From Arenicola marina (taxonomy: Eukaryota > Annelida > Polychaeta > Arenicolidae), in the NCBI GenBank assembly GCA_964019135.1, contig OZ025248.1, forward strand, positions 10,485,574 through 10,549,573: 64,000 bases of DNA, in the 5' to 3' direction. Under the pieces are notes generated by a model. It was not told the origin of the DNA. It saw nothing but the letters and a program-made list of their open reading frames with translations, and made no database searches. This document shows positions 28,282-62,600 of the stretch, in pieces; position 1 is the first letter of the stretch, and each line of letters opens with the position of its first letter. Made by a program: the position numbers and the translations under genes.

Positions 28282-28344
28282 TTCAGGAAATAAATGTCAC
28301 AATTTACTTCTCTGGTCGCAAACTATCCAGACGGTTGTTCTTGC

Positions 28345-30059: not shown

Positions 30060-32215
30060 TCTGTATCTAGCCATATATCCATTTATTTCTTTATCCGTCC
30101 ATTTATTTTGGTGTTTGTCCTAATCTATCCATGCGTCCTCATTTAAGCCTTTGTCTATCCTGGTGTCCCCACATTTATCTTGATCTATTAATGATTCCCA
30201 TCCTCTATCTCTGTCTATACATGTGTCTAAACTTCTATCTTTATCTATCCATGGCTCCCATCCCCTATATTTGTCTATCCGTGTGTCCCCATTTCTATCT
30301 TGATCTATCCAAGGTTCACATCCTCTATCTTTGTCTATCCATGTGTCCACACTTCTGTCTATATCTATCCATGGTTCCCATCCTCTCTTTGTCTATCCAT
30401 GTGTCCCCATTTCTATCTATATCTATCCGTAGTTCTTATTCTCTATATTTGTCTATCCAGGTGTCCCCACTTCCGCCTGTGTCTAACCATGGCTCCCCTC
30501 TTCCATTTTCAGGTGTCCCTCTTCTACCTTTATTTTTTGCCTTTCAATGTTTCTAACTAGGTGTCCCACTTGTACCTTTATCTAACCAGGTTTATCTGTC
30601 CCTTTTCTATCTCTATTTGTCCAGGTGTCCTCACTTCTGTTTAGCTATCCATGGGGTTCCCACTTCTATCTGTATTTGTCCAAGCGTCCACACTTCTGTC
30701 TTTAGCTATCCATGGGTTCCCACTTCTATCTTTATCTGTCCAGGTGTCCTCACTTCTGTCTTTAGCTATCCATGGGTTCCCACTTCTATCTGTATCTGTC
30801 CAAGCGTCCCCACTTCTGTATTTAGCTATCCATGGGTTCCCACTTCTATCTTTATCTGTCCCGGCGTCCACACTTCTGTCTTTAGCTATCCATGGGTTCC
30901 CACTTCTAACTGTATTTGTCCAAGCGTCCTCAATTCTGTCTCTGGCTATCCATGGGTTCCCACTTCTATCTTTATCTGTCCCGGCATCTACACTTCTGTT
31001 TTTAGCTATCCATGGGTTCCGACTTCTATCTGTATCTGTCCAAGCGTCCCCACTTCTGTCTTTAGCTATCCATGGGTTCCCACTTCTATCTTTATCTGAC
31101 CAGGTGTCCTCACTTCTGTCTTTAGCTATCCATGGGTTCCCACTTCTATCTGTATCTGTCCAAGCGTCCAACCTTCTGTCTTCAGTTATTCATCGGTTCC
31201 TACTTCTATCTCTATCTGAACAGGTGTCCTCACTTCTGTCTTTAGATATCCATGGGTTCGCACTTCTATCTGTATCTGTCCAAGTGTCCCCACTTCTGTC
31301 TTTAGCTATTCATGGGTTCCCACTTCTATCTTTATCTGACCAGGTGTCCTCACTTCTGTCTTTAGCTATCCATGGGTTCCCTTCTCTATCTGTATCTGTC
31401 CAAGCGTCCTCACTTCTGTCTTTAGCTATCCATGGGTTCCCTTCTCTATCTGTATCTGTCCAAGCGTCCTCACTTCTGTCTTTAGCTATACATGGGTTCT
31501 CACTTATATCTTTAACTGACCAGGTGTCCTCACTTCTGTCTTTAGCTATCCATGGGTTCCCTTACTATCTTTATCTGTCCCGGCGTCCACACTTCTGTCT
31601 TTAGCTATCCATGGGTTCCCACTTCTATCTTGATCTGTCCAAGCGTCCTCACTTCTGTCTTTAGCTATCCATGGGTTCCGACTTCTATCTGTATCTGTTC
31701 AGGTGTCCTCACTTCTGTCTTTAGCTATCCATGGGTTCCCTTACTATCTTTATCTGTCCCGGCGTCCACACTTCTGTCTTTAGCTATCCATGGGTTCCCA
31801 CTTCTATCTTGATCTGTCCAAGCGTCCTCACTTCTGTCTTTAGCTATCCATGGGTTCCGACTTCTATCTGTATCTGTTCAGGTGTCCTCACTTCTGTCTT
31901 TAGCTATCCATGGGTTCCCACTTCTATCTTTATCTGTCCCGGCGTCCACACTTCTGTCTTTAGCTATCCATGAGTTCCCACTTCTATCTTGATCTGTCCA
32001 AGCGTCCTCACTTCTGTCTTTAGCTATCCATGGGTTCCGACTTCTATCTGTATCTGTCCAGGTGTCCTCACTTCTGTCTTTAGCTATCCATGGGTTCCCA
32101 CTTCTATCTTTATCTGTCCAGGTGTCCTCACTTCTGTCTTTAGCTATCCATGGGTTCCCACTTCTGTGTTTGGATATCCATGGGTTCCCACTTCTATCTT
32201 TATCTATCCAGGAGC
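30060..32215. repeat. 60-bp minisatellite (dimer of a 30-bp unit)
   Basis: About 36 copies of a 60-bp unit. Each unit is two related 30-bp halves, CACTTCTATCTTTATCTGTC-type and CACTTCTGTCTTTAGCTATC-type, the second ending in CATGGGTTCC. Copies left of about 30640 are more diverged than those on the right, typical of homogenisation in the array centre. Because 60 is divisible by 3, long frames run through both strands; these are not treated as genes. Confidence 0.95.
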
Positions 32216-35353: not shown

Positions 35354-35617
35354 ATGGCGCGGATCCATCTAACACTACTGATCATCACCGTCATCGGAGG
35401 CTCGAACTCTGGATCCGCCCAGGGAGCTGACCGGCCGGGCGGCGGCGGCCCCGCACCGGACGTGGATCTCCACGTCATTGGCATGGCGCCCGTGGACAAT
35501 CCGATCTATGACACCGGGACGGCGTTGGAAGGACTCTATATGGCGCTGGAGATGATCAACAGTCGTCCGGATATCCTGCCTGGTTACCGGCTGATCATGG
35601 ACTTCGAAAACAGTAAG
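35354..35617 (+). CDS. Receptor exon 1 (signal peptide and start of flytrap)
   Basis: 88 codons. The ATG has G at -3 and +4. A hydrophobic LTLLIITVIGG core forms the signal peptide, then a Gly/Pro-rich linker, then DLHVIGMAPVDN and MALEMINSRPDILPGY, typical of the first strand and helix of GABA-B flytraps. Donor AAG|GTGAGT, phase 0. Intron 1 is 8.2 kb and full of mobile-element pieces. Confidence 0.88.
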
Positions 35618-38600: not shown

Positions 38601-41600
38601 GCTCTAGCGATAAGAAAGTTCACGAAACCACCATGTGAGTCGACATGGTGGTGTGTTTTTAAAGATCAAGATTTAATTTTTGGACCAATTTACCACAACA
38701 AAATTCAGCTCATATTTGACAGACAGATACCAGAATTTAACTTGAAGGTCCTGCTCGACATAGTTGATTACATAAGTCCAAGCTGTACCAATGGAAAATT
38801 ATCGAGCATATTCAATTCAATATAACATGTGCAACAAAGAACAACTACCCTATACCATACGATTGAAAACATGCCAAGAGCGTCCGTGCTACAAATAACT
38901 ATTACGTTAAGAGACATGATTTCGAAAAAGCGTTTGATACCATTTCTTGGCAGTATTTACACAAGGTACTTAAACATATGAAATTCGGCCCATATTATAG
39001 ACAATGGATTGACATAATATATACAGACATCACCAGCTGTTGCATAAATAACGGTCACTCAACCGCATTCTTCCCTATTACGCGAGGCATCAGACAGGGG
39101 TGTCCAATAAGCGCCTTACTTTTCGTACTTGTTGTAGAAACATTTGCAACACGGATTCGCAGCGATCCCAACGTACATGGTATAACAGTGTGTGAAGCAG
39201 TGTTTAAAATATCACAACTAGCAGATGATGCCACATTGTTTCTGAAGAATGCAGAATCAATATCTAGGGCACTTAATATATTAGAACAGTTTGCGTTATG
39301 CTCAGGGCTAAAGCTCAACAAAAACAAAACAGTCGTGGTTCCTTTACATCCAAACTGTAGATTAGACACTATACACGGCATAGAGGTTAAAAGATCGACT
39401 TTCAAAACCCTGGGTATCTTCTTTGATATAGACCAAATGGCTATGTGCCACAAAAATCTGGAAGACAGATTATCTAAATTTAAAGCTGTACTCACCACCT
39501 GGTCCGCTCGCCGACTATCCCAAAAAGGTAAAATAACCATATTAAAAAGTCTGGCACTCCCGCTGTTGACCTATGCTACCGCTGTCATTCACGTTCCCGA
39601 GAGCTTTATCAAAAAGGTCAAAAGCGAAATAGCAGATTTTGTGTGGAATGCCAAACGCCCCAAAGTGAAATATTCCACAGTGATATCGGACATACCAAAT
39701 GGGGGTCTGAAAATGCCCTGTTTCAGCTCAATTATTGCTAGCCAAAAGGCACTATGGATTAAACGAGTAATATCGGGTAATGAGCTACAAACGAAACAAA
39801 GCAAGTTAGCCCTCTGCCTAATTGGTCTTACAACACAAGAAATCTCAAGCAAACTCTGCATCACACATATAAAGCCCCCTAAGAGTCTTTTTTATAAACA
39901 AGTCATAAAAAACTGGTTTGATGTTTTTTCGGTTGAGCCCGAGGTGGGGAGCGTGAGATATGAAAAACTATGGAATAACAAATACATACTAATTGGAGGA
40001 ATTCTAAGTAATACCTTTTACCCAACCTACAAGCGTTGGGCAGATCATGGAATTACACACATACATCACCTGATGGATGAGAACAGGGGCTTTTTAGAAA
40101 AAGCTGCTTTAGAAGAAAAATACGGAATTCAAATAGACGCGCTAAAACTAAACAGCCTCATACACGCTATTCCCAAACAATGGCGTACGTCACTGTGGCG
40201 AGAGATACAAACAGCGCACACATACAACAATCAGGAACAGCTACAGATAAGAATTAACGGACAGTACATCAATGTTGATAAAATACAGAATCATCACATA
40301 TATTGGGAACTTATAAAAAAATCACAATCCCCACCCACTGCTATTGCCACATGGCTAGAAGAGTTCCCATTTCTAACAGAAAACAGTTTTAAAACATACT
40401 TTTCAATAGGTAATAGTGCAACACGCAACAATCAGATACAAACTTTCCAGTACAAAATCCTCCATAGAATCATACCTTGTAATTACAATCTGGTGAAATG
40501 GCACATAAAAGACAATGCAGCCTGCGATGTATGTATGGAAACTGACACAATAGAGCACTTTATGTATTACTGCCCCTCTGTCAAAAAGATCTGGCAAAAT
40601 ATTGAACAATGGATTACAACCTTATACAATGTTCATGTGAGTCTATCAATAGTAGACGTCTTGTGTGGTATTTCTGGTGATAAAGGATCTATTGTACTGA
40701 GTATAAATTTCATTGTGGTAATGGCTAAATGGTACATCTACAAAAGTAGATTATCGGAGAGCAAGCTGTTAAATTTCGAATTATGTAAATATTTCATCAA
40801 GAAACAGGTGCAAATGGAGCATCATGCTGACATCCTTACAGGAAAATCATCCAGATATATTGCATTGTATGAGAAAATATAATCTTGTAATGTAATTATA
40901 TAATTTTATGTAATATTCCGGCACATATTAATACGATATTCGCAGACCTTATTTCAACATTGCCATATTTGAGTAATCAATAATTGTTTATGTTATCGGC
41001 CTCGACCTATAATTGCATTGCCTATATTTATATATGTATGTAGCTCTCGTTGCTGAAGGAATAAAAAAAAAAAAAGAGACATTATCATTTCAGAATATTC
41101 CAAGGATAAAATATTCATTATTTAGCTTTTATCATATCTTTTGTATGAAGAGTGTTATCATAATTCACAGGGGCGGATCCAGGGGGTGGGTGGGGTGACC
41201 CGGTCCCTTTAACAAATGTGAAAGACGAAACTGCCCTCACCCCCACCTCCCCCCCCCCCCCCTTTATCCAGCTGACCGTTAAAATCCCTATCCGGATTTT
41301 CTGGATCCGCCCCTGATTCAATTCAAGTAAAAAGATAACCCGAGTCAGACTATTTTTTGCGTATTTTTATTAATGTTATCCACAAATGAGGAAGAACGCC
41401 TGGAATTGAAAGTAACTGGTAGCGAGTGGTGTAACTGCCCCCCCCCCCCCCCTCCCACCTCCCCCTGCCCCTCCCCTCACCAAGACAAACAGCTAGCACG
41501 TCGGTAAGGTGACATTTTTCGGACTGTTCGAAGTTACCGCATTTAGGATTCAGCCATAAATAAAGGGGATGGACTTCGATTTGCTAATGAAAGTACATAA

Positions 41601-44600
41601 GAAATGAAGCAAATAATAGATCGGGTTAACGTAATCATGTAGTATACGACACCATTGCCGATAAGCCACCGCTGCATAATGTAAACATTACTGCGCTAAC
41701 ATCACTCTATATATTATGCGCTGTACAGTCAGTCAGACACCAGCATCCACTGCTACTACAGTCGGTATGATGTATCTCATTAGTATGAATTATACATTTA
41801 CGGACCTATCGACTTCGGACTGATGCGTGACGGGTAACCCGCGTCCCACCGTTCCGAGGATGGCAACCTCGTTACATAATACATTGCACCTCCTGCCTTC
41901 CTGTCCTCGAGATTATATATCCACGATGAAAAGGTCGAAACGAGTGGATATCTGGCATGGAATCGATATCAAAGTGACACACTCTTAGTCGAATTACCGA
42001 ACGTCTAGCCGACGTAAATCGCTGCAGTTTCGATAGAAAATCGAGAGTAAGGTCGGACTCGGTTAGACGTCGAAACGCGTCGAGAGCACTTAATTGGTTA
42101 AACGTATTTTTATTTTGAAATTAGAAATCAGGTAAGGCCTAAAACAAATTCCTCTTGCTAAGGTACATAGTCACACAATTGTTAAGAGTATAACATGTCA
42201 AGAACTCTCATTATAGAAATTGTAGAACAATTAGGTTATCTAAACCAGGGTATCAGTAGCTGTATACACATATAAGGTGGCGTAATGCTCTCACACAGGG
42301 TCAGCCAGGTTACTGGATAAAATATCAGATATCCAAGCGTTTACTATTGATGATGAACTCTTGGGCCGAGACAAAATGTTAGCGTTTACATCGAATGGGA
42401 AGTTAAATAGTTTCAATAGACACAGGAGCAGATAATCTTATTTTCCGCATGAGGGTATCCCGAATGTTACTGTAGTGCTTACAAGAGAAAAATAATGAAC
42501 TAACTTTACATCTTTATTCTCCACATGAATACAAAGGGTTCTCAATTATATGTATATCATATAACTGCTGTTTTGACGAGCTACGGTTCATCCTTAGGCG
42601 AGCATGAATTATATTAACAGAGCGAGGACCCATCGCATAGAGTTTGGTCAGCCTTGTCTGATTTTGAGGCGTTATAGCGCGTTTGAATGCATACAAGTTT
42701 CTTAATTGTTTGGTACCGACAGGCAGCATATTCCAAAGTCTTACTGTGCTGAGTAGAAAGTATTTATACAATACATTTAACCTTGTTTGAATCGATGTCA
42801 TATCGAGTGCATGAGCATTTCGTAATTGGTACACTGTTCTGGTGTTAACAGATGGGTGGTAATAGGCTACACAGATAGGGCGTGGCCTTGTTGTAAAACA
42901 CTTTGTGGAATAACATCAGTTTGGCACGTTCGCGTCTTTTGGCAAGCGACTCCCACCCCAGCTCGTTATAGATTTTGATATGGCTCGTATACTTAACAGC
43001 GCCGTTTACCAAACGACCAGCCCTTAACTGCACCGATTCAAGTTTGTCACTTTCATATTGAGTACATCTACCCCAGATAACGCTTCCGTTTTCTAAGGTT
43101 GGTCTAATAAATGCTTTATACATTATGTCTAAGAGTCTTTCGTGACAGGCGATGACTCAAACGAGCTAATAAATCGACCCGTCTGCTAGCCTTGAGATAC
43201 ATTTCACTATATGAGACGACCAGGATAATCTTGAATTCAAGGTAAGACCGAGATGTTTGCATTCCTTAACAGATTCGAAAATTGGCATTTCCCATGGTTA
43301 GTTGAGGCATCGTTGGACAATCTTTGTTTGATATTTCCATAGATTTGGTCTTAGACGCATTGAATTTAACGAACCATTTGGAAGCCCAGTTCTCCATTTT
43401 CAAGCAAACTTATTTCCTAGGCAGATAAAGCTGGGCTAGCTTCCAGAACTAAAAGTAGTTAAAATTGGTAGTCACTCAAGATCTATTCACACAAACCTTA
43501 CCTTCATCCTCATGCACAACCAATCGTAAACTAACAGAGAATTCAAAAGTTTACTTATATTTGTGGCATCTAGAATGGCACCTTAATTTATGCCGAGAAT
43601 TTTTTTTTCCGAAAATACCCGACGAAAAAGTGTAGCATTGCGCAGCCCAACCTTCATATTATGGTCCCGTGTCATATTGAGGTCAGGTGTTATTTGGAGG
43701 TCACGTGTCATATTATGGTCAGGTGTCATATTGAGGACACGTATCATATTGAGGTCAGGTTTCATATGTATGCGCCTGAGCTCACGAACATCTCCGTCAA
43801 ATATGTCTCATTTAGATATATTTTCGCATGCACCTGAAATATCGATGCCTTGTTCTATCCAGTGTGCGACAGGTCCCGGCATAGATGCCCTCTACCGGCA
43901 GCTGTACAACCCACCAGCCAAGCTGATGGTGATCGGAGCAGGGTGTTCTGTGGTCTGCCAACCCGCCACAGAAGGATCAGTCCTCTGGAACCTCACCACG
44001 GTAAGCTGATGGTGATCGGAGCGGGGTGTTCTGTGGTCTGCCAACCCCGCCTCAGAAGGATCAGTCCTTTGGAACCTCACCACGGTAAGCTGATGGTGAT
44101 CGGAGCAGGGTGTTCTGTGGTCTGCCAACCCCGCCTCAGAAGGATCAGTCCTCTGGAACCTCACCACGGTAAGCTGATGGTGATCGGAGCGGGGTGTTCT
44201 GTGGTCTGCCAACCCGCCACAGAAGGATCAGTCTTCTGGAACCTCACCACGGTAAGCTGATGGTGATCGGAGCGGGGTGTTCTGTGGTCTGCCAACCCCG
44301 CCTCAGAAGGATCAGTCCTCTGGAACCTCACCACGGTAAGCTGATGGTGATCGGAGCGGGGTGTTCTGTGGTCTGCCAACCCCGCCTCAGAAGGATCAGT
44401 CCTCTGGAACCTCACCACGGTAAGCTGATGGTGATCGGAGCGGGGTGTTCTGTGGTCTGCCAACCCCGCCTCAGAAGGATCAGTCCTCTGGAACCTCACC
44501 ACGGTAAGCCGATGGTGATCGGAGCGGAGTGTTCTGTGGTCTGCCAACCCCGCCTCAGAAGGATCAGTCCTCTGGAACCTCACCACGGTAAGCTGATGGT

Positions 44601-47600
44601 GATCGGAGCGGGGTGTTCTGTGGTCTGCCAACCACGCCTCAGAAGGATCAGTCCTCTGGAACCTCACTACGGTAAGCTGATGGTGATCGGAGCGGGGTGT
44701 TCTGTGGTCTGCCAACCCCGCCTCAGAAGGATCAGTCCTCTGAAACCTCACCACGGTAAGCTGATGGTGATCGGAGCGGGGTGTTCTGTGGTCTGCCAAC
44801 CCCGCCTCAGAAGGATCAGTCCTCTGGAACCTCACCACGGTAAGCTGATGGTGATCGGAGCGGGGTGTTCTGTGGTCTGCCAACCCCGCCTCAGAAGGAT
44901 CAGTCCTCTGAAACCTCACCACGGTAAGCTGATGGTGATCGGAGCGGGGTGTTCTGTGGTCTGCCAACCCCGCCTCAGAAGGATCAGTCCTCTGGAACCT
45001 CACCACGGTAAGCTGATGGTGATCGGAGCGGGGTGTTCTGTGGTCTGCCAACCCCGCCTCAGAAGGATCAGTCCTCTGGAACCTCACCACGGTAAGCTGA
45101 TGGTGATCGGAGCGGGGTGTTCTGTGGTCTGCCAACCCCGCCTCAGAAGGATCAGTCCTCTGGAACCTCACCACGGTAAGCTGATGGTGATCGGAGCGGG
45201 GTGTTCTGTGGTCTGCCAACCCCGCCTCAGAAGGATCAGTCCTCTGGAACCTCACCACGGTAAGCTGATGGTGATCGGAGCGGGGTGTTCTGTGGTCTGC
45301 CAACCACGCCTCAGAAGGATCAGTCCTCTGGAACCTCACCACGGTAAGCTGATGGTGATCGGAGCGGGGTGTTCTGTGGTCTGCCAACCCCGCCTCAGAA
45401 GGATCAGTCCTCTGGAACCTCACCACGGTAAGCTGATGGTGATCGGAGCGGGGTGTTCTGTGGTCTGCCAACCCCGCCTCAGAAGGATCAGTCTTCTGGA
45501 ACCTCACCACGGTAAGCTGATGGTGATCGGAGCGGGGTGTTCTGTGGTCTGCCAACCCCGCCTCAGAAGGATCAGTCCTCTGGAACCTCACCACGGTAAG
45601 CTGATGGTGATCGGAGCGGGGTGTTCTGCGGTCTGCCAACCCCGCCTCAGAAGGATCAGTCCTCTGGAACCTCACCACGGTAAGCTGATGGTGATCGGAG
45701 CGGGGTGTTCTGTGGTCTGCCAACCCCGCCTCAGAAGGATCAGTCCTCCGGAACCTCACCACGGTAAGCTGATGGTGATCGGAGCGGGGTGTTCTGTGGT
45801 CTGCCAACCCCGCCTCAGGAGGATCAGTCTTCTGGAACCTCACCACGGTAAGCTGATGGTGATCGGAGCGGGGTGTTCTGTGGTCTGCCAACCCCGCCTC
45901 AGAAGGATCAGTCCTCTGAAACCTCACCACGGTGAGCTGATGGTGATCGGAGCGGGGTGTTCTGTGGTCTGCCAACCCCGCCTCAGAAGGATCAGTCCTC
46001 TGGAACCTCACCACGGTAAGCTGATGGTGATCAGAGCGGGGTGTTCTGTGGTCTGCCAACCCCGCCTCAGAAGGATCAGTCCTCTGGAACCTCACCACGG
46101 TAAGCTGATGGTGATCGGAGCGGGGTGTTCTGTGGTCTGCCAACCCCGCCTCAGAAGGATCAGTCCTCTGAAACCTCACCACGGTAAGCTGATGGTGATC
46201 GGAGCGGGGTGTTCTGTGGTCTGCCAACCCCGCCTCAGAAGGATCAGTCCTCTGGAACCTCACCACGGTAAGCTGATGGTGATCGGAGCGGGGTGTTCTG
46301 TGGTCTGCCAACCCCGCCTCAGAAGGATCAGTCCTCTGGAACCTCACCACGGTAAGCTGATGGTGATCGGAGCGGGGTGTTCTGTGGTCTGCCAACCCCG
46401 CCTCAGAAGGATCAGTCCTCTGGAACCTCACCACGGTAAGCTGATGGTGATCGGAGCGGGGTGTTCTGCGGTCTGCCAACCCCGCCTCAGAAGGATCAGT
46501 CCTCTGGAACCTCACCACGGTAAGCTGATGGTGATCGGAGCGGGGTGTTCTGTGGTCTGCCAACCCCGCCTCAGAAGGATCAGTCCTCTGGAACCTCACC
46601 ACGGTAAGCTGATGGTGATCGGAGCGGGGTGTTCTGTGGTCTGCCAACCCCGCCTCAGGAGGATCAGTCTTCTGGAACCTCACCACGGTAAGCTGATGGT
46701 GATCGGAGCGGGGTGTTCTGTGGTCTGCCAACCCCGCCTCAGAAGGATCAGTCCTCTGAAACCTCACCACGGTAAGCTGATGGTGATCGGAGCGGGGTGT
46801 TCTGTGGTCTGCCAACCCCGCCTCAGAAGGATCAGTCCTCTGGAACCTCACCACGGTAAGCTGATGGTGATCAGAGCGGGGTGTTCTGTGGTCTGCCAAC
46901 CCCGCCTCAGAAGGATCAGTCCTCTGGAACCTCACCACGGTAAGCTGATGGTGATCGGAGCGGGGTGTTCTGTGGTCTGCCAACCCCGCCTCAGAAGGAT
47001 CAGTCCTCTGGAACCTCACCACGGTAAGCTGATGGTGATCGGACCGGGGTGTTCTGTGGTCTGCCAACCCCGCCTCAGAAGGATCAGTCTTCTGGAACCT
47101 CACCACGGTAAGCTGATGGTGATCGGAGCGGGGTGTTCTGTGGTCTGCCAACCCCGCCTCAGAATGATCAGTCCTCTGGAACCTCACCACGGTAAGCTGA
47201 TGGTGATCGGAGCGGGGTGTTCTGTGGTCTGCCAACCCCGCCTCAGAAGGATCAGTCCTCTGGAACCTCACCACGGTAAGCTGATGGTGATCGGAGCGGG
47301 GTGTTCTGTGGTCTGCCAACCCCGCCTCAGGAGGATCAGTCTTCTGGAACCTCACCACGGTAAGCTGATGGTGATCGGAGCGGGGTGTTCTGTGGTCTGC
47401 CAACCCCGCCTCAGAAGGATCAGTCCTCTGAAACCTCACCACGGTAAGCTGATGGTGATCGGAGCGGGGTGTTCTGTGGTCTGCCAACCCCGCCTCAGAA
47501 TGATCAGTCCTCTGGAACCTCACCACGGTAAGCTGATGGTGATCGGAGCGGGGTGTTCTGTGGTCTGCCAACCCCGCCTCAGAAGGATCAGTCCTCTGGA

Positions 47601-50600
47601 ACCTCACCACGGTAAGCTGATGGTGATCGGAGCGGGGTGTTCTGTGGTCTGCCAACCCCGCCTCAGAAGGATCAGTCTTCTGGAACCTCACCACGGTAAG
47701 CTGATGGTGATCGGAGCGGGGTGTTCTGTGGTCTGCCAACCCCGCCTCAGAATGATCAGTCCTCTGGAACCTCACCACGGTAAGCTGATGGTGATCGGAG
47801 CGGGGTGTTCTGTGGTCTGCCAACCCCGCCTCAGAAGGATCAGTCCTCTGGAACCTCACCACGGTAAGCTGATGGTGATCGGAGCGGGGTGTTCTGTGGT
47901 CTGCCAACCCCGCCTCAGAAGGATCAGTCTTCTGGAACCTCACCACGGTAAGCTGATGGTGATCGGAGCGGGGTGTTCTGTGGTCTGCCAACCCCGCCTC
48001 AGAATGATCAGTCCTCTGGAACCTCACCACGGTAAGCTGATGGTGATCGGAGCGGGGTGTTCTGTGGTCTGCCAACCCCGGCTCAGAAGGATCAGTCCTC
48101 TGGAACCTCACCACGGTAAGCTGATGGTGATCGGAGCGGGGTGTTCTGTGGTCTGCCAACCCCGCCTCAAAGGGATCACTCCTCTGGAACCTCACCACGG
48201 TAAGCTGATGGTGATCGGAGCGGGGTGTTCTGTGGTCTGCCAACCCCGCCTCAGAAGGATCAGTCTTCTGGAACCTCACCACGGTAAGCTGATGGTGATC
48301 GGAGCGGGGTGTTCTGTGGTCTGCCAACCCCGCCTCAGAAGGATCAGTCTTCTGGAACCTCACCACGGTAAGCTGATGGTGATCTGAGCGGGGTGTTCTG
48401 TGGTCTGCCAACCCCGCCTCAGAAGGATCAGTCCTCTGAAACGTCACCACGGTAAGCTGATGGTGATCGGAGCGGGGTGTTCTGTGGTCTGCCAACCCCG
48501 CCTCAGAATGATCAGTCCTCTGGAACCTCACCACGGTAAGCTGATGGTGATCGGAGCGGGGTGTTCTGTGGTCTGCCAACCCCGCCTCAGAAGGATCAGT
48601 CCTCCGGAACCTCACCACGGTAAGCTGATGGTGATCGGAGCGGGGTGTTCTGTGGTCTGCCAACCCCGCCTCAGAAGGATCAGTCCTCTGAAACCTCACC
48701 ACGGTAAGCTGATGGTGATCGGAGCGGGGTGTTCTGTGGTCTGCCAACCCCGTCTCAGAAGGATCAGTCCTCTGGAACCTCACCACGGTAAGCTGATGGT
48801 GATCGGAGCGGGGTGTTCTGCGGTCTGCCAACCCCGCCTCAGAAGGATCAGTCCTCTGGAATCTCACCACGGTAAGCTGATGGTGATCGGAGCGGGGTGT
48901 TCTGTGGTCTGCCAACCCCGCCTCAGAAGGATCAGTCCTCTGGAACCTCACCACGGTAAGCTGATGGTGATCGGAGCGGGGTGTTCTGTGGTCTGCCAAC
49001 CCCGCCTCAGGAGGATCAGTCTTCTGGAACCTCACCACGGTAAGCTGATGGTGATCGGAGCGGGGTGTTCTGTGGTCTGCCAACCCCGCCTCAGAAGGAT
49101 CAGTCCTCTGAAACCTCACCACGGTAAGCTGATGGTGATCGGAGCGGGGTGTTCTGTGGTCTGCCAACCCCGCCTCAGAAGGATCAGTCCTCTGGAACCT
49201 CACCACGGTAAGCTGATGGTGATCGGAGCTGGGTGTTCTGTGGTCTGCCAACCCCGCCTCAGAAGGATCAGTCCTATGGAACCTCACCACGGTAAGCTGA
49301 TGGTGATCGGAGCGGGGTGTTCTGTGGTCTGCCAACCCCGCCTCAGAAGGATCAGTCCTCTGGAACCTCACCACGGTAAGCTGATGGTGATCGGAGCGGG
49401 GTGTTCTGCGGTCTGCCAACCCCGCCTCAGAAGGATCAGTCTTCTGGAACCTCACCACGGTAAGCTGATGGTGATCGGAGCGGGGTGTTCTGTGGTCTGC
49501 CAACCCCGCCTCAGAATGATCAGTCCTCTGGAACCTCACCACGGTAAGCTGATGGTGATCGGAGCGGGGTGTTCTGTGGTCTGCCAACCCCACCTCAGAA
49601 GGATCAGTCCTCTGGAACCTCACCACGGTAAGCTGATGGTGATCGGAGCGGGGTGTTCTGTGGTCTGCCAACCCCGCTTCAGAAGGATCAGTCCTCTGGA
49701 ACCTCACCACGGTAAGCTGATGGTGATCGGAGCGGGGTGTTCTGTGGTCTGCCAACCCCGCCTCAGAAGGATCAGTCCTCTGGAACCTCACCACGGTAAG
49801 CTGATGGTGATCGGAGCGGGGTGTTCTGTGGTCTGCCAACCCCGCCTCAGAAGGATCAGTCCTCTGGAACCTCACCACGGTAAGCTGATGGTGATCGGAG
49901 CGGGGTGTTCTGTGGTCTGCCAACCCCGCCTCAGAAGGATCAGTCCTTTGGAACCTCACCACGGTAAGCTGATGGTGATCGGAGCGGGGTGTTCTGTGGT
50001 CTGCCAACCCCGCCTCAGAAGGATCAGTCTTCTGGAACCTCACCACGGTAAGCTGATGGTGATCGGAGCGGGGTGTTCTGTGGTCTGCCAACCCCGCCTC
50101 AGAATGATCAGTCCTCTGGAACCTCACCACGGTAAGCTGATGGTGATCGGAGCGGGGTGTTCTGTGGTCTGCCAACCCCGCCTCAGAATGATCAGTCCTC
50201 TGGAACCTCACCACGGTAAGCTGATGGTGATCGGAGCGGGGTGTTCTGTGGTCTGCCAACCCCGCCTCAGAAGGATCAGTCTTCTGGAACCTCACCACGG
50301 TAAGCTGATGGTGATCGGAGCGGGGTGTTCTGTGGTCTGCCAACCCCGCCTCAGAATGATCAGTCCTCTGGAACCTCACCACGGTAAGCTGATGGTGATC
50401 GGAGCGGGGTGTTCTGTGGTCTGCCGACCCCGCCTCAGAAGGATCAGTCCTCTGGAACCTCACCACGGTAAGCTGATGGTGATCGGAGCGGGGTGTTCTG
50501 TGGTCTGCCAACCCCGCCTCAAAGGGATCACTCCTCTGGAACCTCACCACGGTAAGCTGATGGTGATCGGAGCGGGGTGTTCTGTGGTCTGCCAACCCCG

Positions 50601-53600
50601 CCTCAGAAGGATCAGTCTTCTGGAACCTCACCACGGTAAGCTGATGGTGATCGGAGCGGGGTGTTCTGTGGTCTGCCAACCCCGCCTCAGAAGGATCAGT
50701 CTTCTGGAACCTCACCACGGTAAGCTGATGGTGATCGGAGCGGGGTGTTCTGTGGTCTGCCAACCCCGCCTCAGAAGGATCAGTCCTCTGGAACCTCACC
50801 ACGGTAAGCTGATGGTGATCGGAGCGGGGTGTTCTGTGGTCTGCCAACCCCGCCTCAGAAGGATCAGTCCTCTGGAACCTCACCACGGTAAGCTGATGGT
50901 GATCGGAGCGGGGTGTTCTGTGGTCTGCCAACCCCGCTTCAGAAGGATCAGTCTTCTGGAACCTCACCACGGTAAGCTGATGGTGATCGGAGCGGGGTGT
51001 TCTGTGGTCTGCCAACCCCGCCTCAGAAGGATCAGTCCTCTGGAACCTCACCACGGTAAGCTGATGGTGATCGGAGCGGGGTGTTCTGTGGTCTGCCAAC
51101 CCCGCCTCAGAATGATCAGTCTTCTGGAACCTCACCACGGTAAGCTGATGGTGATCGGAGCGGGGTGTTCTGTGGTCTGCCAACCCCGCCTCAGAATGAT
51201 CAGTCCTCTGGAACCTCACCACGGTAAGCTGATGGTGATCGGAGCGGGGTGTTCTGTGGTCTGCCAACCCCGCCTCAGAAGGATCAGTCCTCTGGAACCT
51301 CACCACGGTAAGCTGATGGTGATCGGAGCGGGGTGTTCTGTGGTCTGCCAACCCCGCCTCAGAAGGATCAGTCTTCTGGAACCTCACCACGGTAAGCTGA
51401 TGGTGATCGGAGCGGGATGTTCTGTGGTCTGCCAACCCCGCCTCAGAATGATCAGTCCTCTGGAACCTCACCACGGTAAGCTGATGGTGATCGGAGCGGG
51501 GTGTTCTGTGGTCTGCCAACCCCGCCTCAGAAGGATCAGTCCTCTGGAACCTCACCACGGTAAGCTGATGGTGATCGGAGCGGGGTGTTCTGTGGTCTGC
51601 CAACCCCGCCTCAGAAGGATCAGTCCTCTGGAACCTCACCACGGTAAGCTGATGGTGATCGGAGCGGGGTGTTCTGTGGTCTGCCAACCCCGCCTCAGAA
51701 GGATCAGTCTTCTGGAACCTCACCACGGTAAGCTGATGGTGATCGGAGCGGGATGTTCTGTGGTCTGCCAACCCCGCCTCAGAATGATCAGTCCTCTGGA
51801 ACCTCACCACGGTAAGCTGATGGTGATCGGAGCGGGGTGTTCTGTGGTCTGCCAACCCCGCCTCAGAATGATCAGTCCTCTGGAACCTCACCACGGTAAG
51901 CTGATGGTGATCGGAGCGGGGTGTTCTGTGGTCTGCCAACCCCGCCTCGGAAGGATCAGTCTTCTGGAACCTCACCACGGTAAGCTGATGGTGATCGGAG
52001 CGGGGTGTTCTGTGGTCTGCCAACCCCGCCTCAGAATGATCAGTCCTCTGGAACCTCACCACGGTAAGCTGATGGTGATCGGAGCGGAGTGTTCTGTGGT
52101 CTGCCAACCCGCCACAGAAGGATCAGTCCTCTGGAACCTCACCACGGTAAGCTGATGGTGATCGGAGCGGGGTGTTCTGTGGTCTGCCAACCCCGCCTCA
52201 GAATGATCAGTCCTCTGGAACCTCACCACGGTAAGCTGATGGTGATCGGAGCGGGGTGTTCTGTGGTCTGCCAACCCCGCCTCAGAAGGATCAGTCCTCT
52301 GGAACCTCACCACGGTAAGCTGATGGTGATCGGAGCGGGGTGTTCTGTGGTCTGCCAACCCCGCCTCAGAAGGATCAGTCCTCTGGAACCTCACCACGGT
52401 AAGCTGATGGTGATCGGAGCGGGGTGTTCTGTGGTCTGCCAACCCCGCCTCAGAAGGATCAGTCCTCTGGAACCTCACCACGGTAAGCTGATGGTGATCG
52501 GAGCGGGGTGTTCTGTGGTCTGCCAACCCCGCCTCAGAAGGATCAGTCCTCTGGAACCTCACCACGGTAAGCTGATGGTGATCGGAGCGGGGTGTTCTGT
52601 GGTCTGCCAACCCCGCCTCAGGAGGATCAGTCTTCTGGAACCTCACCACGGTAAGCTGATGGTGATCGGAGCGGGGTGTTCTGTGGTCTGCCAACCCCGC
52701 CTCAGAATGATCAGTCCTCTGGAGCCTCACCACGGTAAGCTGATGGTGATCGGAGCGGGGTGTTCTGTGGTCTGCCAACCCCGCCTCAGAATGATCAGTC
52801 CTCTGGAACCTCACCACGGTAAGCTGATGGTGATCGGAGCGGGGTGTTCTGTGGTCTGCCAACCCCGCCTCAGAAGGATCAGTCTTCTGGAACCTCACCA
52901 CGGTAAGCTGATGGTGATCGGAGCGGGGTGTTCTGTGGTCTGCCAACCCCGCCTCAGAATGATCAGTCCTCTGGAACCTCACCACGGTAAGCTGATGGTG
53001 ATCGGAGCGGGGTGTTCTGTGGTCTGCCAACCCCGCCTCAGAAGGATCGGTCCTCTGGAACCTCACCACGGTAAGCTGATGGTGATCGGAGCGGGGTGTT
53101 CTGTGGTCTGCCAACCCCGCCTCAGAAGGATCAGTCCTCTGGAACCTCACCACGGTAAGCTGATGGTGATCGGAGCGGGGTGTTCTGTGGTCTGCCAACC
53201 CCGCCTCAGAAGGATCAGTCTTCTGGAACCTCACCACGGTAAGCTGATGGTGATCGGAGCGGGGTGTTCTGTGGTCTGCCAACCCCGCCTCAGAATGATC
53301 AGTCCTCTGGAACCTCACCACGGTAAGCTGATGGTGATCGGAGCGGGGTGTTCTGTGGTCTGCCAACCCCGCCTCAGAAGGATCAGTCCTCTGAAACCTC
53401 ACCACGGTAAGCTGATGGTGATCGGAACGGGGTGTTCTGTGGTCTGCCAACCCCGCCTCAGAAGGATCAGTCCTCTGGAACCTCACCACGGTAAGCTGAT
53501 GGTGATCGGAGCGGGGTGTTCTGTGGTCTGCCAACCCCGCCTCAGAAGGATCAGTCCTCTGAAACCTCACCACGGTAAGCTGATGGTGATCGGAGCGGGG

Positions 53601-56600
53601 TGTTCTGTGGTCTGCCAACCCCGCCTCAGAATGATCAGTCCTCTGGAACCTCACCACGGTAAGCTGATGGTGATCGGAGCGGGGTGTTCTGTGGTCTGCC
53701 AACCCCGCCTCAGAAGGATCAGTCCTCTGGAACCTCACCACGGTAAGCTGATGGTGATCGGAGCGCTGTGTTCTGTGGTCTGCCAACCCCGCCTCAGAAT
53801 GATCAGTCCTCTGGAACCTCACCACGGTAAGCTGATGGTGATCGGAGCGGGGTGTTCTGTGGTCTGCCAACCCCGCCTCAGAAGGATCAGTCTTCTGGAA
53901 CCTCACCACGGTAAGCTGATGGTGATCGGAGCGGGGTGTTCTGTGGTCTGCCAACCCCGCCTCAGAAGGATCAGTTCTCTGGAACCTCACCACGGTAAGC
54001 TGATGGTGATCGGAGCGGGGTGTTCTGTGGTCTGCCAACCCCGCCTCAGAATGATCAGTCCTCTGGAACCTCACCACGGTAAGCTGATGGTGATCGGAGC
54101 GGGGTGTTCTGTGGTCTGCCAATCCCGCCTCAGAAGGATCAGTCCTCTGGAACCTCACCACGGTAAGCTGATGGTGATCGGAGCGGGGTGTTCTGTGGTC
54201 TGCCAACCCCGCCTCAGAAGGATCAGTCCTCTGGAACCTCACCACGGTAAGCTGATGGTGATCGGAGCGGGGTGTTCTGTGGTCTGCCAACCCCGCCTCA
54301 GAAGGATCAGCCTTCTGGAACCTCACCACGGTAAGCTGATGGTGATCGGAGCGGGGTGTTCTGTGGTCTGCCAACCCCGCCTCAGAAGGATCAGTCCTCT
54401 GGAACCTCACCACGGTAAGCTGATGGTGATCGGAGCGGGGTGTTCTGTGGTCTGCCAACCCCGCCTCAGAAGGATCAGTCCTCTGGAACCTCACCACGGT
54501 AAGCTGATGGTGATCGGAGCGGGGTGTTCTGTGGTCTGCCAACCCCGCCTCAGAAGGATCAGTCCTCTGGAACCTCACCACGGTAAGCTGATGGTGATCG
54601 GAGCGGGGTGTTCTGTGGTCTGCCAACCCCGCCTCAGAAGGATCAGTCCTCTGGAACCTCACCACGGTAAGCTGATGGTGATCGGAGCGGGGTGTTCTGT
54701 GGTCTGCCAACCCCGCCTCAGAAGGATCAGTCTTCTGGAACCTCACCACGGTAAGCTGATGGTGATCGGAGCGGGGTGTTCTGTGGTCTGCCAACCCCGC
54801 CTCAGAAGGATCAGTCTTCTGGAACCTCACCACGGTAAGCTGATGGTGATCGGAGCGGGGTGTTCTGTGGTCTGCCAACCCCGCCTCAGAAGGATCAGTC
54901 CTCTGGAACCTCACCACGGTAAGCTGATGGTGATCGGAGCGGGGTGTTCTGTGGTCTGCCAACCCCGCCTCAGAAGGATCAGTCCTCTGGAACCTCACCA
55001 CGGTAAGCTGATGGTGATCGGAGCGGGGTGTTCTGTGGTATGCCAACCCCGCCTCAGAATGATCAGTCCTCTGGAGCCTCACCACGGTAAGCTGATGGTG
55101 ATCGGAGCGGGGTGTTCTGTGGTCTGCCAACCCCGCCTCAGAATGATCAGTCCTCTGGAACCTCACCACGGTAAGCTGATGGTGATCGGAGCGGGGTGTT
55201 CTGTGGTCTGCCAACCCCGCCTCAGAAGGATCAGTCTTCTGGAGCCTCACCACGGTAAGCTGATGGTGATCGGAGCGGGGTGTTCTGTGGTCTGCCAACC
55301 CCGCCTCAGAATGATCAGTCCTCTGGAACCTCACCACGGTAAGCTGATGGTGATCGGAGCGGGGTGTTCTGTGGTCTGCCAACCCCGCCTCAGAAGGATC
55401 AGTCCTCTGGAACCTCACCACGGTAAGCTGATGGTGATCGGAGCGGGGTGTTCTGTGGTCTGCCAACCCCGCCTCAGAAGGATCAGTCCTCTGGAACCTC
55501 ACCACGGTAAGCTGATGGTGATCGGAGCGGGGTGTTCTGTGGTCTGCCAACCCCGCCTCAGAAGGATCAGTCTTCTGGAACCTCACCACGGTAAGCTGAT
55601 GGTGATCGGAGCGGGATGTTCTGTGGTCTGCCAACCCCGCCTCAGAATGATCAGTCCTCTGGAACCTCACCACGGTAAGCTGATGGTGATCGGAGCGGGG
55701 TGTTCTGTGGTCTGCCAACCCCGCCTCGGAAGGATCAGTCTTCTGGAACCTCACCACGGTAAGCTGATGGTGATCGGAGCGGGGTGTTCTGTGGTCTGCC
55801 AACCCCGCCTCAGAATGATCAGTCCTCTGGAACCTCACCACGGTAAGCTGATGGTGATCGGAGCGGGGTGTTCTGTGGTCTGCCAACCCGCCACAGAAGG
55901 ATCAGTCCTCTGGAACCTCACCACGGTAAGCTGATGGTGATCGGAGCGGAGTGTTCTGTGGTCTGCCAACCCCGCCTCAGAATGATCAGTCCTCTGGAAC
56001 CTCACCACGGTAAGCTGATGGTGATCGGAGCGGGGTGTTCTGTGGTCTGCCAACCCCGCCTCAGAAGGATCAGTCCTCTGGAACCTCACCACGGTAAGCT
56101 GATGGTGATCGGAGCGGGGTGTTCTGTGGTCTGCCAACCCCGCCTCAGAAGGATCAGTCCTCTGGAACCTCACCACGGTAAGCTGATGGTGATCGGAGCG
56201 GGGTGTTCTGTGGTCTGCCAACCCCGCCTCAGAAGGATCAGTCCTCTGGAACCTCACCACGGTAAGCTGATGGTGATCGGAGCGGGGTGTTCTGTGGTCT
56301 GCCAACCCCGCCTCAGAAGGATCAGTCCTCTGGAACCTCACCACGGTAAGCTGATGGTGATCGGAGCGGGGTGTTCTGTGGTCTGCCAACCCCGCCTCAG
56401 AAGGATCAGTCTTCTGGAACCTCACCACGGTAAGCTGATGGTGATCGGAGCGGGGTGTTCTGTGGTCTGCCAACCCCGCCTCAGAATGATCAGTCCTCTG
56501 GAGCCTCACCACGGTAAGCTGATGGTGATCGGAGCGGGGTGTTCTGTGGTCTGCCAACCCCGCCTCAGAATGATCAGTCCTCTGGAACCTCACCACGGTA

Positions 56601-59600
56601 AGCTGATGGTGATCGGAGCGGGGTGTTCTGTGGTCTGCCAACCCCGCCTCAGAAGGATCAGTCTTCTGGAACCTCACCACGGTAAGCTGATGGTGATCGG
56701 AGCGGGGTGTTCTGTGGTCTGCCAACCCCGCCTCAGAATGATCAGTCCTCTGGAACCTCACCACGGTAAGCTGATGGTGATCGGAGCGGGGTGTTCTGTG
56801 GTCTGCCAACCCCGCCTCAGAAGGATCAGTCCTCTGGAACCTCACCACGGTAAGCTGATGGTGATCGGAGCGGGGTGTTCTGTGGTCTGCCAACCCCGCC
56901 TCAGAAGGATCAGTCTTCTGGAACCTCACCACGGTAAGCTGATGGTGATCGGAGCGGGGTGTTCTGTGGTCTGCCAACCCCGCCTCAGAATGATCAGTCC
57001 TCTGGAACCTCACCACGGTAAGCTGATGGTGATCGGAGCGGGGTGTTCTGTGGTCTGCCAACCCCGCCTCAGAAGGATCAGTCCTCTGGAACCTCACCAC
57101 GGTAAGCTGATGGTGATCGGAGCGGGGTGTTCTGTGGTCTGCCAACCCCGCCTCAGAAGGATCAGTCCTCTGGAACCTCACCACGGTAAGCTGATGGTGA
57201 TCGGAGCGGGGTGTTCTGTGGTCTGCCAACCCCGCCTCAGAAGGATCAGTCCTCTGGAACCTCACCACGGTAAGCTGATGGTGATCGGAGCGGGGTGTTC
57301 TGTGGTCTGCCAACCCCGCCTCAGAAGGATTAGTCCTCTGGAACCTCACCACGGTAAGCTGATGGTGATCGGAGCGGGGTGTTCTGTGGTCTGCCAACCC
57401 CGCCTCAGAATGATCAGTCCTCTGGAACCTCACCACGGTAAGCTGATGGTGATCGGAGCGGGGTGTTCTGTGGTCTGCCAACCCCGCCTCAGAATGATCA
57501 GTCCTCTGGAACCGCACCACGGTAAGCTGATGGTGATCGGAGCGGGGTGTTCTGTGGTCTGCCAACCCCGCCTCAGAAGGATCAGTCCTCTGGAACCTCA
57601 CCACGGTAAGCTGATGGTGATCGGAGCGGGGTGTTCTGTGGTCTGCCAACCCCGCCTCAGAAGGATCAGTCCTCTGAAACCTCACCACGGTAAGCTGATG
57701 GTGATCGGAGCGGGGTGTTCTGTGGTCTGCCAACCCCGCCTCAGAAGGATCAGTCCTCTGAAACCTCACCACGGTAAGCTGATGGTGATCGGAGCGGGGT
57801 GTTCTGTGGTCTGCCAACCCCGCCTCAGAAGGATCAGTCCTCTGAAACCTCACCACGGTAAGCTGATGGTGATCGGAGCGGGGTGTTCTGTGGTCTGCCA
57901 ACCCCGCCTCAGAAGGATCAGTCCTCTGGAACCTCACCACAATATGTCGAGTGATCTGTTCCGACGCTGGCATCTGGGGCAAGTTCCATCAAAACCCACT
58001 TCATTTTATCGGGAGGTTCCTTGCGATGGCACGTGGTCATTCGATACACAATAATTGCCATGGATTTCTTCAAAACGAATTACGGGGTTACCCTGACCGG
58101 ACTTTTCTGCAGTCCCGATCCTTCCCATTGGCGCGAAATGATCTTCCCGAGTGTAAGTTGTGCTCTTCAACCCGAGTTTACCCCGTGTTTCGTATTTTTA
58201 CGGTGCAGTGAATGATTATTTGTATTTGACTGATTATGTATAGTTCATGTATCAGACTAGAGCTTTTAATAATTTCACGCCATTATGCGACTCAGGCCTT
58301 ATTATATTCTCACTTGTGTCTGATCGATGCAGGACAATATATCGTTATTATTTCAAATGATGATACCGAGCAATTTATATGAAGGGCGTGGATATGTTGT
58401 ATGATTCTCGGGGTCTTATATGGCGCCGTCTATTGCCCGTGATCCCATGGCCTATCATTTGAACCCATAATCTTACCTAAAACCTGGCGAAAGCATAAGT
58501 GCGAAGGACGCGCATACCCACGAGGGCTCGACTGACGGGTATCATGTGATTGATATCTGACTATCACGTAATTTGTGCTCGGCGGACCCATGATGTGCAG
58601 GGTTATGCACGGTATATACATGACCATGTCTTCTGTTCATCGCAGGTGTCCTTCACTTGTACCTCGCCGGCCCTGTCCGACAGGAAGCGATACCCCAGAT
58701 TCTTCAGAACTGTCATACCAGATTCGTCCAAAGTGCCACTAGTCTTTCACATCATGAATATGTATAACTGGACGAAGGTTGCTGTAATCAATCAGGCGTT
58801 TGAAATATTTTCAGCGGTAAGTTACGGATCATAAATATGTGATAACATTCAAGTAGACTGCAGATAGAGAGTGAGGCAGAGTGATGTAGCACTGTATTTA
58901 TAGTTTCATAATTACATTGTTGTTTTATAAACGTACTCTACTTATGCTTATAGATTAAAAATATTTATTTCCATCTACAACCTCAGCTTTGTATGTGATG
59001 TTTGTATTTGTAGAGTGCAGATAAATTTATGGACGTCATGTCCACATACAACAAGACTCTGGTCACGTCTGAGGTTTTCCAAAGTGATTCTCGTGTGCAG
59101 ATACAAAAACTCAAGGTCAGGTTGTGTGTGGACCTTTTGGACGATTTATTGCGAAGAACCTCGTAAATTCCATAAAATATATATATAGGGCAATTATATA
59201 TATATATAGGAGAATATCGTTTACAAATTTGGTATATCCATAAAATATATTTCGTTACCTAGAGAGATATTTAAAGTGATATATATGTAAGGTATTATGC
59301 GATATAGACCAAGCATGCCATTAAGCAGTGATATGTCCGTAAGACATATTGCGATACATATGCTATTTCAGAAAATGACGTTCACTCGATAGAATGAGTC
59401 ATATCATTGCATACTAGTGATACAACTATGTCTTATGGAGGCAATTAAGAATCACCTCATGGCATCGTAGTAGCAGTAGGAATAACACATTGGTGCATGG
59501 TATGTGCATCAAAGTTGTAGTCTTCTGACCGGCTTTTATCTCATTGAAGGCCAAGGACACTCGCATTATCTTAGCCGGGTTCTACAATGTTATTGGACCG

Positions 59601-62600
59601 GACGTTATGTGTAACGTAAGTGTACGAATGGACTACCGAAGCTAATATCGACAGTTTATGATATATGCACGTATGCGAAAGTGAACAATATCGTATTCTA
59701 TTGGGGGAAAACAATATATTTAAGGTTCAGAAACACTTATTATCGCCCATAACTGAGCTTATGGTGGGGGCAAACATTTAATTACATATGTACCTCCGTG
59801 TCAACCAATCAGACACAAGGTCGCGACGTCACTGTGGATGAGGGCGAACTTCCGCAAGCATGTAAAGACAAGCAAATAAATAGGCAGTGATTTTCTTGAT
59901 CATCGTCTGTTGAACGTGCACATGTGATGTCGTAAGCCACAAACGTTAGCTACCTATTAATAACTGCGTGAAAACATATGAACACTATTCTAACATTTGA
60001 TGTGCAATGAATACAGTTCGCGGTTAGTTATGCGTTATACATTTACATTGATACGTAACCTTGGAAGACCCCGATATCACTAAATGCATTCTTTTTTTCT
60101 CCCTTTCGGTAAACCTATGCATACAAAAGGCATACAAAGCCGGCCTGTACAAACCAAAGGTCGTCTGGTTGCTCCCAAATTGGTTCCCTTTGATGTGGTT
60201 TTTGGACCCAGCCACTCCTGTCTCTTGCTCTGAGGAGGAGCTCCTGCAAGTTATTGAAGGAACCATCTACCTGGGACAGAGCCTCGTCAACCCCTTCAAC
60301 GACACCAGTTTCTCCGGGCTGACGTTTAACGAAATGAAGGCTATATTCACCGCACGGACCGTCAACATGACGCATCATGGGACCGAGTTCTTCAGCTCTT
60401 CTTTCTTCGACTCCGGCTGGGTGGCGGCCATGGCTCTGCACAGGACGATGGAGAAACTTAATGGCAAGTTTTAATTACAAATACATATTAGCGACATGCG
60501 CAAGCAGATTTTAAAAATCGATCCATATATTTATTTGCGACCGAAATCGTAAATATCACATGCAATATATATGATCCTGTTTTTATTTGAAGTGATTGGA
60601 CTCTATATCGCTGTATTTCTTTGTTTGTAATATAACGTCTACAAAATCCATATTTTACCAGGGTCGTCCAAGACGTTGGCGGATTTTACGTATTCTGACA
60701 TGGAGATGGCCGACATGATCACAGAGAGTGTGAAGGAGACGGACTTTATGGGGGTCCAGGGCAAGATGAAGTTTGACGAGGAGGGAAACCCTTCAAGTAT
60801 CATGAGCATAGAGCAACAACAAGGTCGGTAGGATGTTGGTTACAATTCTAATAAATATGTTAATATCCCAGTCACCTTGAAACAACATGTAACATTTTAC
60901 GCAATTTTAATTTCTAACTTCTACATTCGAGCCTGCTAACATTATAAAATTGGACATGTGAAATCCGATAAATATCCATTCGACTAAAGTGGAATATGAA
61001 TCCATACTTTCTCAACTGCCTTTGTTGTCTTGCACTAGGGTTGGAACGACCGGTTGTTGGCTACTATAGGCCTGACCTTGGCAGCGTTATCTGGCAGAAT
61101 GGGGGACTCAAGTGGCCAGGTAACATTCTGGATTGTCTCACCTTAAGTGTTAACCACGCACCAAATGTGTCCGCAATAGCAAGATTATATATCATTTCGG
61201 ATCGTGGAAAGGACAAAGAAGTGCTAAAACATTAACTACAGCATTGAGGTTGTTACTCGGCCACCCAAGTAAAGCTTCCTGTGTTGCATGGGTTAAGATT
61301 ATGTGATGGAGGCCGCCCCAGCCAACCACTGGATCAACGATCAACCAACTTACAAACGGGCAATCGTATTCCAGTTCGTTATTTATTCGACAGGAGGTAA
61401 AGCACCACGTGACTCCAGCGTGGTGACCTATGAACGGTTGTATGTGTCCACCGCCATCTTGGCCGCCATGTTTACACTGACTGCTCTCGGCATCTTGGCG
61501 GCCGTCGGCTTTCTCGTCTTTAATGTGGGGTTCCGGAAGAGACGGTAATATTTATCGTTACTAATAGGTGTTTAACCCTGATATATGTTATCAGGGTTAA
61601 ACACTTATTTGATTGCTTCCGATCTCCTTGTGGTGGTGTACTCTTAAGTTGAGTATTTCATGGGGAGCGTATTTATTCGGAAACAAAAACGGTTAAAATA
61701 CTTTAATTTGCAAATAAATACAATTTGTCTTCTGCGTATGGAGGAAAGGTATTATATGATTCTACATTGTTTTCTATTTATCGACCTGTAAATTTCCCAA
61801 ACATGGTTGGACGCATGACATGGTCCAGACAATAATATAAATGGAACTGGTGTGAATTAATGTGCACAATGATACGACTGTCAGAATAGTTGTTATATGG
61901 GATACTTTGTACACTGATTTTTGTGTGATTCAGGGTCATCAAGATGTCAGCTCCAAACATCAACAACATCATCTTAGCTGGTTGTATCTTCGCCTATGCC
62001 ACTGTGTTGTTCGTGGATTCTAGCAAGTCCTGGCTTAGTGTCCAGTCCATTTGCATTGTAAGTATAATGTTTGGTAGCCCTACATATTACAGGCTACCGC
62101 TAATTACCAATATAAATATTAATAACTAATTACCAATATAAATATAAAAACTGAAACGTTTGGCGGCATAAATTGTCGCTATGTTAGCGTTCTTGTCTTT
62201 CGCTGTAAAGACTACTTTAAATACACATTCTTAGGTTCGCCTAGTGACCTTCATCTTGGGTTTCTCGCTGACATACGGAGGGCTCTTCTCCAAGACGTGG
62301 AGAGTCCACGTGATACTGACGTCATCAATGAAGACTGGACAACGAACGGTGGGTGACAAGCTCCCGCAGACACCACAGCAATGTGCCTACCAATCACCCT
62401 TGGTGATTGAACTGTAATATAATTATTTTAAATTTTACCATATATTGCTGACGATTTCATTATATTATAATTCCTAAACTGGCGCAATTATTTTGGATCA
62501 GGACAGGTTATATATATATCCGTCATAGATGTTGTGTCTATATCATAGTTTTAGCATATTTCCACGGTCACATCTTTTCATGATATGTGTGTGATACCAT

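Follow-up and report, generated by a model that had tools for sequence, protein, structure and literature searches.

A 167-unit tandem array built on an exon end and its splice donor occupies most of an intron in a GABA-B receptor-like gene of Arenicola marina

What becomes of a coding exon when its 3′ end, splice donor included, is repeated in tandem at the exon's own border? This question is raised by intron 2 of a GABA-B receptor subunit 1-like gene in a 64,000-nucleotide stretch of the genome of the annelid Arenicola marina (GenBank assembly GCA_964019135.1, contig OZ025248.1, positions 10,485,574 to 10,549,573, forward strand; hereafter the window, in whose numbering positions are given). 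Tandem Repeats Finder (TRF) reported an array at 43920-57940 with a period of 84, 167.0 copies, 97% matches, and a score of 26971, and a unit-by-unit split of the assembled sequence gave 167 head-to-tail units, 163 of 84 bp and four of 83 bp (units 1, 4, 98, and 143). The 167-copy array grown from an exon end that a first-pass annotation had described was thus recovered by both counts. Its statement that the array fills almost all of intron 2 also held, as the array accounts for 13,943 bp of the 14,645 bp between 44001 and 58645 (95%). The same annotation took unit 1 to be an 84-bp segment made of the end of exon 2 and the start of the intron; the seed is indeed the exon end, apparently functional, but unit 1 measures 83 bp and its intronic part is only the GT of the donor (Table 1).

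The units are highly uniform: 54 of the 167 are identical to the consensus, a unit carries 0.93 differences on average, and the mean pairwise difference between units is 2.0% per site. Chance is excluded as the origin of this pattern. Compared with the exon, the array unit has one inserted C, which shifts the frame, an A to T change in column 50, and an A to G change in column 21. The unit ends read ACG/GTAAGC in 165 of the 167 units and GTGAGC in one, while the final unit lacks the GT. A 29-mer of the exon type has exactly four exact matches in the 867-Mb genome, all of them in units 1, 4, 98, and 143. The term satellite used in the first-pass annotation suits a long, homogenised head-to-tail array (167 units, 97% matches); its sense of a dispersed family finds no support in the exon-type 29-mer, whose matches are confined to the array. 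The exact unit pattern had no match in viral contigs, and the 120 bases on each side of the array (from 57941 on the right), searched for a degenerate extra unit, resembled the unit only at the level of shuffled sequence. Separately, an 18-bp repeat was seen at 43654-43772, about 90 bp upstream of exon 2.

Table 1 Positions of the array, its units, and the exons of the receptor gene in the window.
Feature	Position	Strand	Basis
Exon 1 of the GABA-B receptor subunit 1-like gene: start codon, start of ligand-binding domain	35354..35617	+	homologue alignment
Exon 2, 138 nt, phase 0; 43863-43919 unrepeated, 43920-44000 exonic part of unit 1	43863..44000	+	
Array, 167 units (163 of 84 bp, 4 of 83 bp); TRF end 57940	43920..57943	+	
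Unit 1: 81 nt of exon end and GT of donor	43920..44002	+	
Exon 2 donor GTAAGC, composed of GT (unit 1) and AAGC (exon-derived start of unit 2)	44001..44006	+	
Unit 4: 83-bp exon type; exon peptide with L to F	44171..44253	+	
Units 89-112: duplicated block, first copy (lag, about 45 units)	51310..53324	+	
Unit 98: 83-bp exon type; exon peptide with G to E	52066..52148	+	
Units 135-156: second copy of duplicated block	55173..57019	+	
Unit 143: 83-bp exon type; exon peptide without change	55845..55927	+	
Right array edge: AATATGTCGA after CACCAC; native donor putatively lost by GG to AA	57941..57950	+	
Intron 2 remainder, non-repeat	57944..58645	+	
Exon 3	58646..58816	+	
Exons 4-14; exon 14 end probably 63954, before GC donor	59014..63954	+	

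In the gene model, exons 1-14 of the host gene join in frame, and exon 15, which lies outside the window, ends in a stop codon. The predicted product carries ANF_receptor and 7tm_3 domains, which place it among the GABA-B receptors and class C G-protein-coupled receptors. A 737-residue query product, including about 15 residues beyond the probable end of exon 14 at 63954, found its best protein matches in Capitella teleta (48%), Owenia fusiformis, and Haliotis rubra (13 matches among 8000 candidates scored). The ligand-binding part, queried without four exon 2 residues, matched solved structures of GABA-B receptor subunit 1. The peptide region encoded in the unit is conserved in GABA-B receptors of other phyla, and the join of exons 2 and 3 (WNLTT/VSF) is free of gaps in an alignment with 14 homologues. 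Intron 1 of the gene holds a reverse transcriptase frame of the long interspersed nuclear element (LINE) type at 38867-40882.

A six-frame search that gave 66 matches, with 61 of its 125 candidates scored, placed three close paralogues (A, B, and C) on the contig of the array and more distant matches elsewhere. Paralogue A is arranged tail to tail with the array-bearing gene. Exons 1-14 and an exon 15 were located in each of the three, with exon ends set by tblastn and splice motifs; a small number of these ends may be misplaced by a few bases. Two places match exon 1 of paralogue C with equal score (C1:32365988-32366146 and 32369654-32369812), probably owing to a local duplication. Intron 2 lies at the identical position in A, B, and C, where it measures 477, 232, and 241 bp. 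Since all three paralogues hold a short intron at that position, intron 2 is old and the array is new. The alignment of exon 2 with A and C is gapless across 138 nt, indicating that the 83-bp unit type is ancestral and that the 84-bp type, with its additional C and its A to T change, is derived. Four substitutions within the unit are unique to the array-bearing gene relative to A and C, and the array consensus has three of them; the array is therefore either younger than the split from A and C or has been kept in step with the exon. Between the unit part of exon 2 and the three paralogues, the proportion of nonsynonymous differences (pN) was 0.05-0.12 and that of synonymous differences (pS) 0.48-0.67.

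At the far end of the array, where the native donor of exon 2 is expected, the sequence reads A/AT. The corresponding junction is CACCACG/GTATGA in paralogue C and has GTGGGT in A and B. We infer that the array ends on the right at the native exon-intron junction, in which GG has become AA. On a weight table of splice sites, the array donor scores 8.8 and the nearest GTs to the right of the array score −3.4 and 1.5. There is no good donor at the right edge, whether GG was changed to AA or the original start of the intron was deleted. With the native donor probably lost, the exon would depend on a donor that exists only when at least two units are present. If the array were reduced to one unit, the best remaining donor of the intron would score 6.9, but it lies 211 nt further on and leads to a stop. 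The array is thus probably needed now for normal splicing of exon 2.

The consequences of donor choice were followed through the gene model. Among the 166 donors, the first leaves the frame open to the end of the window, whereas with each of the remaining 165 translation would end prematurely at codon 137, 78 nt or more upstream of the exon junction. A stop so far upstream of a junction would make the mRNA liable to nonsense-mediated decay. The array donor outscores 9 of the 12 other donors scored in the gene, so the decoys are not weak. The join of exon 2 to exon 3 is predicted to use the first donor. This choice would fit exon definition; splicing by intron definition should prefer the last donors. 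A coding role for the array was considered and rejected, because long open frames simply accompany a unit length that is a multiple of 3 and all later donors give a stop. The array also differs from arrays of mutually exclusive exons, which consist of intact exon copies with their own acceptor and frame, in that 163 of its 167 units carry the frameshifting C.

From these features, the following course of events is proposed. In a tandem duplication of about 83 bp, the end of exon 2 together with the initial GT of the existing intron would have become linked to a point within exon 2, and the new joint, GT followed by exonic AAGC, would have created the strong donor GTAAGC. As splicing from the first donor would leave the protein unchanged, further copies would have been intronic and nearly free of selection, and unequal exchange and slippage could have brought growth to 167 units and homogenisation. 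The version with 1 additional bp may then have taken over the array, which would be possible only because the copies are untranslated. The native donor of the far end would have disappeared at some point, after which the exon would rely on the array joint. We consider this course, from an exon-end seed through expansion in an old intron to the loss of the native donor, to be quite probable.

A gapped alignment of units 89-112 with units 135-156 gave 22 unit pairs with few differences and a score of 34.4, far above the scores of 60 permutations (mean, 13.9; maximum, 17.7), which shows that a block was duplicated at a lag of about 45 units. An exact-run test for block duplication did not rise above permutations. 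The first-pass annotation had held that the coding exon is exposed to exchange with its neighbours. Such exposure is plausible: units 4, 98, and 143 belong to the exon type, and G21A occurs in unit 3 as well as in the exon; these units fit either occasional exchange or relics of early units. However, the amplified part of exon 2 shows no higher density of substitutions unique to the gene (4 of 81 sites) than the remainder (4 of 57), which argues against strong exchange. Faster evolution of the amplified exon part had been considered from the pS of the unit and of the upstream part (0.65 and 0.26 against C, 0.67 and 0.38 against B, 0.48 and 0.59 against A) and was dropped, because the unique substitutions are not denser there. 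Selection to keep the array donors received no significant support: leaving aside the last unit, the donor window of 12 columns holds three distinct changes (P = 0.12).

Several points weigh against the proposed course of events. The use of the first donor for the join of exons 2 and 3 is a prediction from the sequence. The distinct changes among units are spread unevenly, with 28 of 45 in columns 41-75 (P = 0.004; the 45 changes were transcribed by hand from the unit split), and simple neutrality does not explain this. The native donor was identified from a short stretch shared with paralogue C (TATG after CACCAC), and the 705 bp to the right of the array showed no similarity to the paralogue stretches searched (blastn, E 0.01); a deletion of the original intron start is an alternative that would look much alike. 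In the one-unit case, weak donors scoring 1.5 (9 nt further on) and 2.1 (261 nt further on) would keep the frame open, so that the ratchet imposed by the loss of the native donor would be strong but not absolute. Finally, the donor of exon 14 (63766-63960) looks poor: it is of the GC type, GCACGG, against GTACGG in paralogue B, a hint that the gene copy may lack full constraint.

Other explanations of the array were weighed against its structure and against the paralogues. An array of about 14 kb made of such similar units is hard to assemble, and its exact copy number is unsure. A short real repeat might accordingly have been over-expanded by the assembler, but the units carry many ordered variants, and the duplicated block of 22 pairs itself shows differences between its copies. 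The array also lies inside a 77-Mb contig with both flanks belonging to one gene, its region consists of plain bases within the window, and the paralogues hold smaller arrays over exon ends; an artefact is quite improbable on this evidence. That the array had instead created intron 2, as in intron gain by tandem duplication, would agree with the partly exonic origin of the donor and with a mechanism known in potato and fission yeast (PMC4974935, PMC3629103, as far as the excerpts used here go). Yet intron 2 occupies the equal position in all three paralogues, so the intron is not absent from relatives; the acceptor and 702 bp of non-repeat intron lie outside the array; and the unit ends in ACG/GT rather than in the duplicated AG/GT of such cases. 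We regard intron gain as next to impossible here. An origin of the exon sequence from a pre-existing dispersed satellite is likewise extremely improbable: no supporting evidence was found, the array-type unit having no genome-wide score, while the peptide region is conserved in the paralogues and in GABA-B receptors of other phyla and the exon-type 29-mer is confined to the array.

The array could also serve as a set of alternative or poison exons, copies of which would be spliced in to alter or regulate the receptor. Strong donors stand at 165 unit ends, and an acceptor-like CAG with a weight-table score of 2.6 precedes the donor by 29 nt in 146 of the 167 units, within the range of the native acceptors (−1.8 to 6.3). 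A single repeat unit is, moreover, retained in some transcripts of human ABCA7, according to the part of the report used here (PMC5954066). On the other side, 163 of the 167 units are frameshifted, every donor after the first gives the identical stop, and the acceptor of exon 2 lies outside the repeated part. Such a use of the array is unlikely, and the seeding of an intronic array by the exon end is the reading that we retain.

TRF arrays were compared with the exon borders of the four genes. They cross 4 of 60 exon 3′ ends (56 donors and 4 stops), the 84-bp array included, and none of 56 exon 5′ ends. In paralogue B, the end of exon 2 and its donor are covered by a diverged 32-bp repeat (4.8 to 6.3 copies depending on the TRF setting; stretch L036, 906-1059, + strand) at the exon border where the 84-bp array also stands, and the end of exon 13 by 2.3 copies of a 59-bp unit with only 7 exonic nt and several GGTAAG motifs. 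The last exon of paralogue C runs into 22 copies of an 86-bp unit that includes the stop codon and extends into the region after it, with the coding end as the first unit (C1:32353982-32355877). One more duplication over the stop codon was seen by eye in paralogue A and was not reported by TRF. Degenerate copies of the end of exon 13 follow its donor in A and C, and a weaker one does so in the array-bearing gene.

With the 24 arrays of period 12 or more in the gene spans placed at random and the big array shortened to 252 bp, 3.2 crossings of exon 3′ ends were expected against the 4 observed (P = 0.39), and 3.0 of 5′ ends against 0. The crossings are near random expectation, and their recurrence alone therefore needs no special mechanism; the 4 to 0 asymmetry between 3′ and 5′ ends is suggestive only. 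When 42-nt seeds were scored, a z of 5 or more was reached by 5 of 52 donors, 1 of 52 acceptors (3 of 52 at z 4), and 10 of 200 random intron seeds, of which at least 4 came from introns 2 and 13 of paralogue B, which hold its exon 2 and exon 13 arrays. A special enrichment of repeats at donors was accordingly dropped as a reading.

The comparison with known systems draws on excerpts of the cited papers. The human CBS variable number tandem repeat (VNTR) c.1444_1467+7(16_21) is polymorphic, with 16-21 copies of a 31-bp unit (PMC2630376). By its notation, 24 exonic and 7 intronic nt make up the unit, which therefore spans the exon end and its donor, with the exon end itself as first copy, as in the receptor array. 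It is much smaller than that array (16-21 units of 31 bp against 167 of 84 bp) and has a lower exonic share (24 of 31 nt against 81 of 83 in unit 1). In the same gene, c.844_845ins68 is a duplication across an intron-exon junction with duplicate splice sites, one of which is strongly favoured (PMC2630376). The 25-bp VNTR of human ABCA7 starts with the GT donor of exon 18 and has alleles of up to 5399 bp; longer arrays go with more skipping of exon 19, and length is linked to lower expression (PMC5954066). It shares with the receptor array a repeated donor and great length, and the retention of single units shows that a repeated donor is usable, but the ABCA7 repeat lies in intron 18 beside the exon and lacks exon sequence, whereas the receptor unit is mostly exonic. 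Intron gain in the potato RdRp gene (PMC4974935) and from 24-nt repeats in fission yeast (PMC3629103) resembles the present case in mechanism: splice sites are provided by the tandem duplication of sequence from an exon or its border, and copies of the exon become intronic. The outcome in those cases is a new intron, while in the receptor gene an old one was lengthened and its donor probably replaced.

In the receptor array the unit includes the exon end and the 5′ splice site (81 exonic nt and GT), and the first copy is the exon end, with the rest intronic according to the gene model, the homologues, and the paralogues. The array is thus a real, extreme member of the exon-donor VNTR kind. The first-pass annotation had called it unusual, which is right for its size but not for its kind, given the donor-spanning VNTRs of human CBS and ABCA7 and the three further TRF arrays that cross exon 3′ ends in this gene family. 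A literature search over titles and abstract openings met no case of such size, which is not proof of absence; nor did the literature so covered describe either an almost wholly exonic unit at such a scale or loss of the native donor.

Elsewhere in the window, retroelement frames of the Ty3/gypsy type occupy 10530-16573, with a zinc knuckle, a protease and reverse transcriptase, and an integrase; a stop divides the RNase H region over two frames. Two related reading frames for TPR proteins lie on the minus strand at 3485-5029 and 26854-28296. Two more tandem arrays have layered periods, of 17, 102, and 204 bp at 1-1491 and of 30, 60, 120, and 180 bp at 30149-32210.

The locus raises the question of whether exon 3′ ends are recurring seeds of minisatellites. 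It also offers 166 donors with near-identical local sequence that differ mainly in position, so that use of the first or the last donor would tell exon definition from intron definition. Tentatively, and as a possibility that we would not rate highly, exon ends may act as one-way sinks for tandem duplication, in which the first copy keeps its function and copies on the noncoding side grow without limit. Once the native donor had been lost, as is proposed here, a return to one copy would be hard, and this ratchet would make a neutral satellite indispensable for splicing of the exon that seeded it. The length of the array, with its 165 decoy donors, may further set the output of the receptor, by analogy with the relation between VNTR length and expression in ABCA7. 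Loss of the native donor may thus be a simple route by which a selectively neutral repeat becomes necessary.

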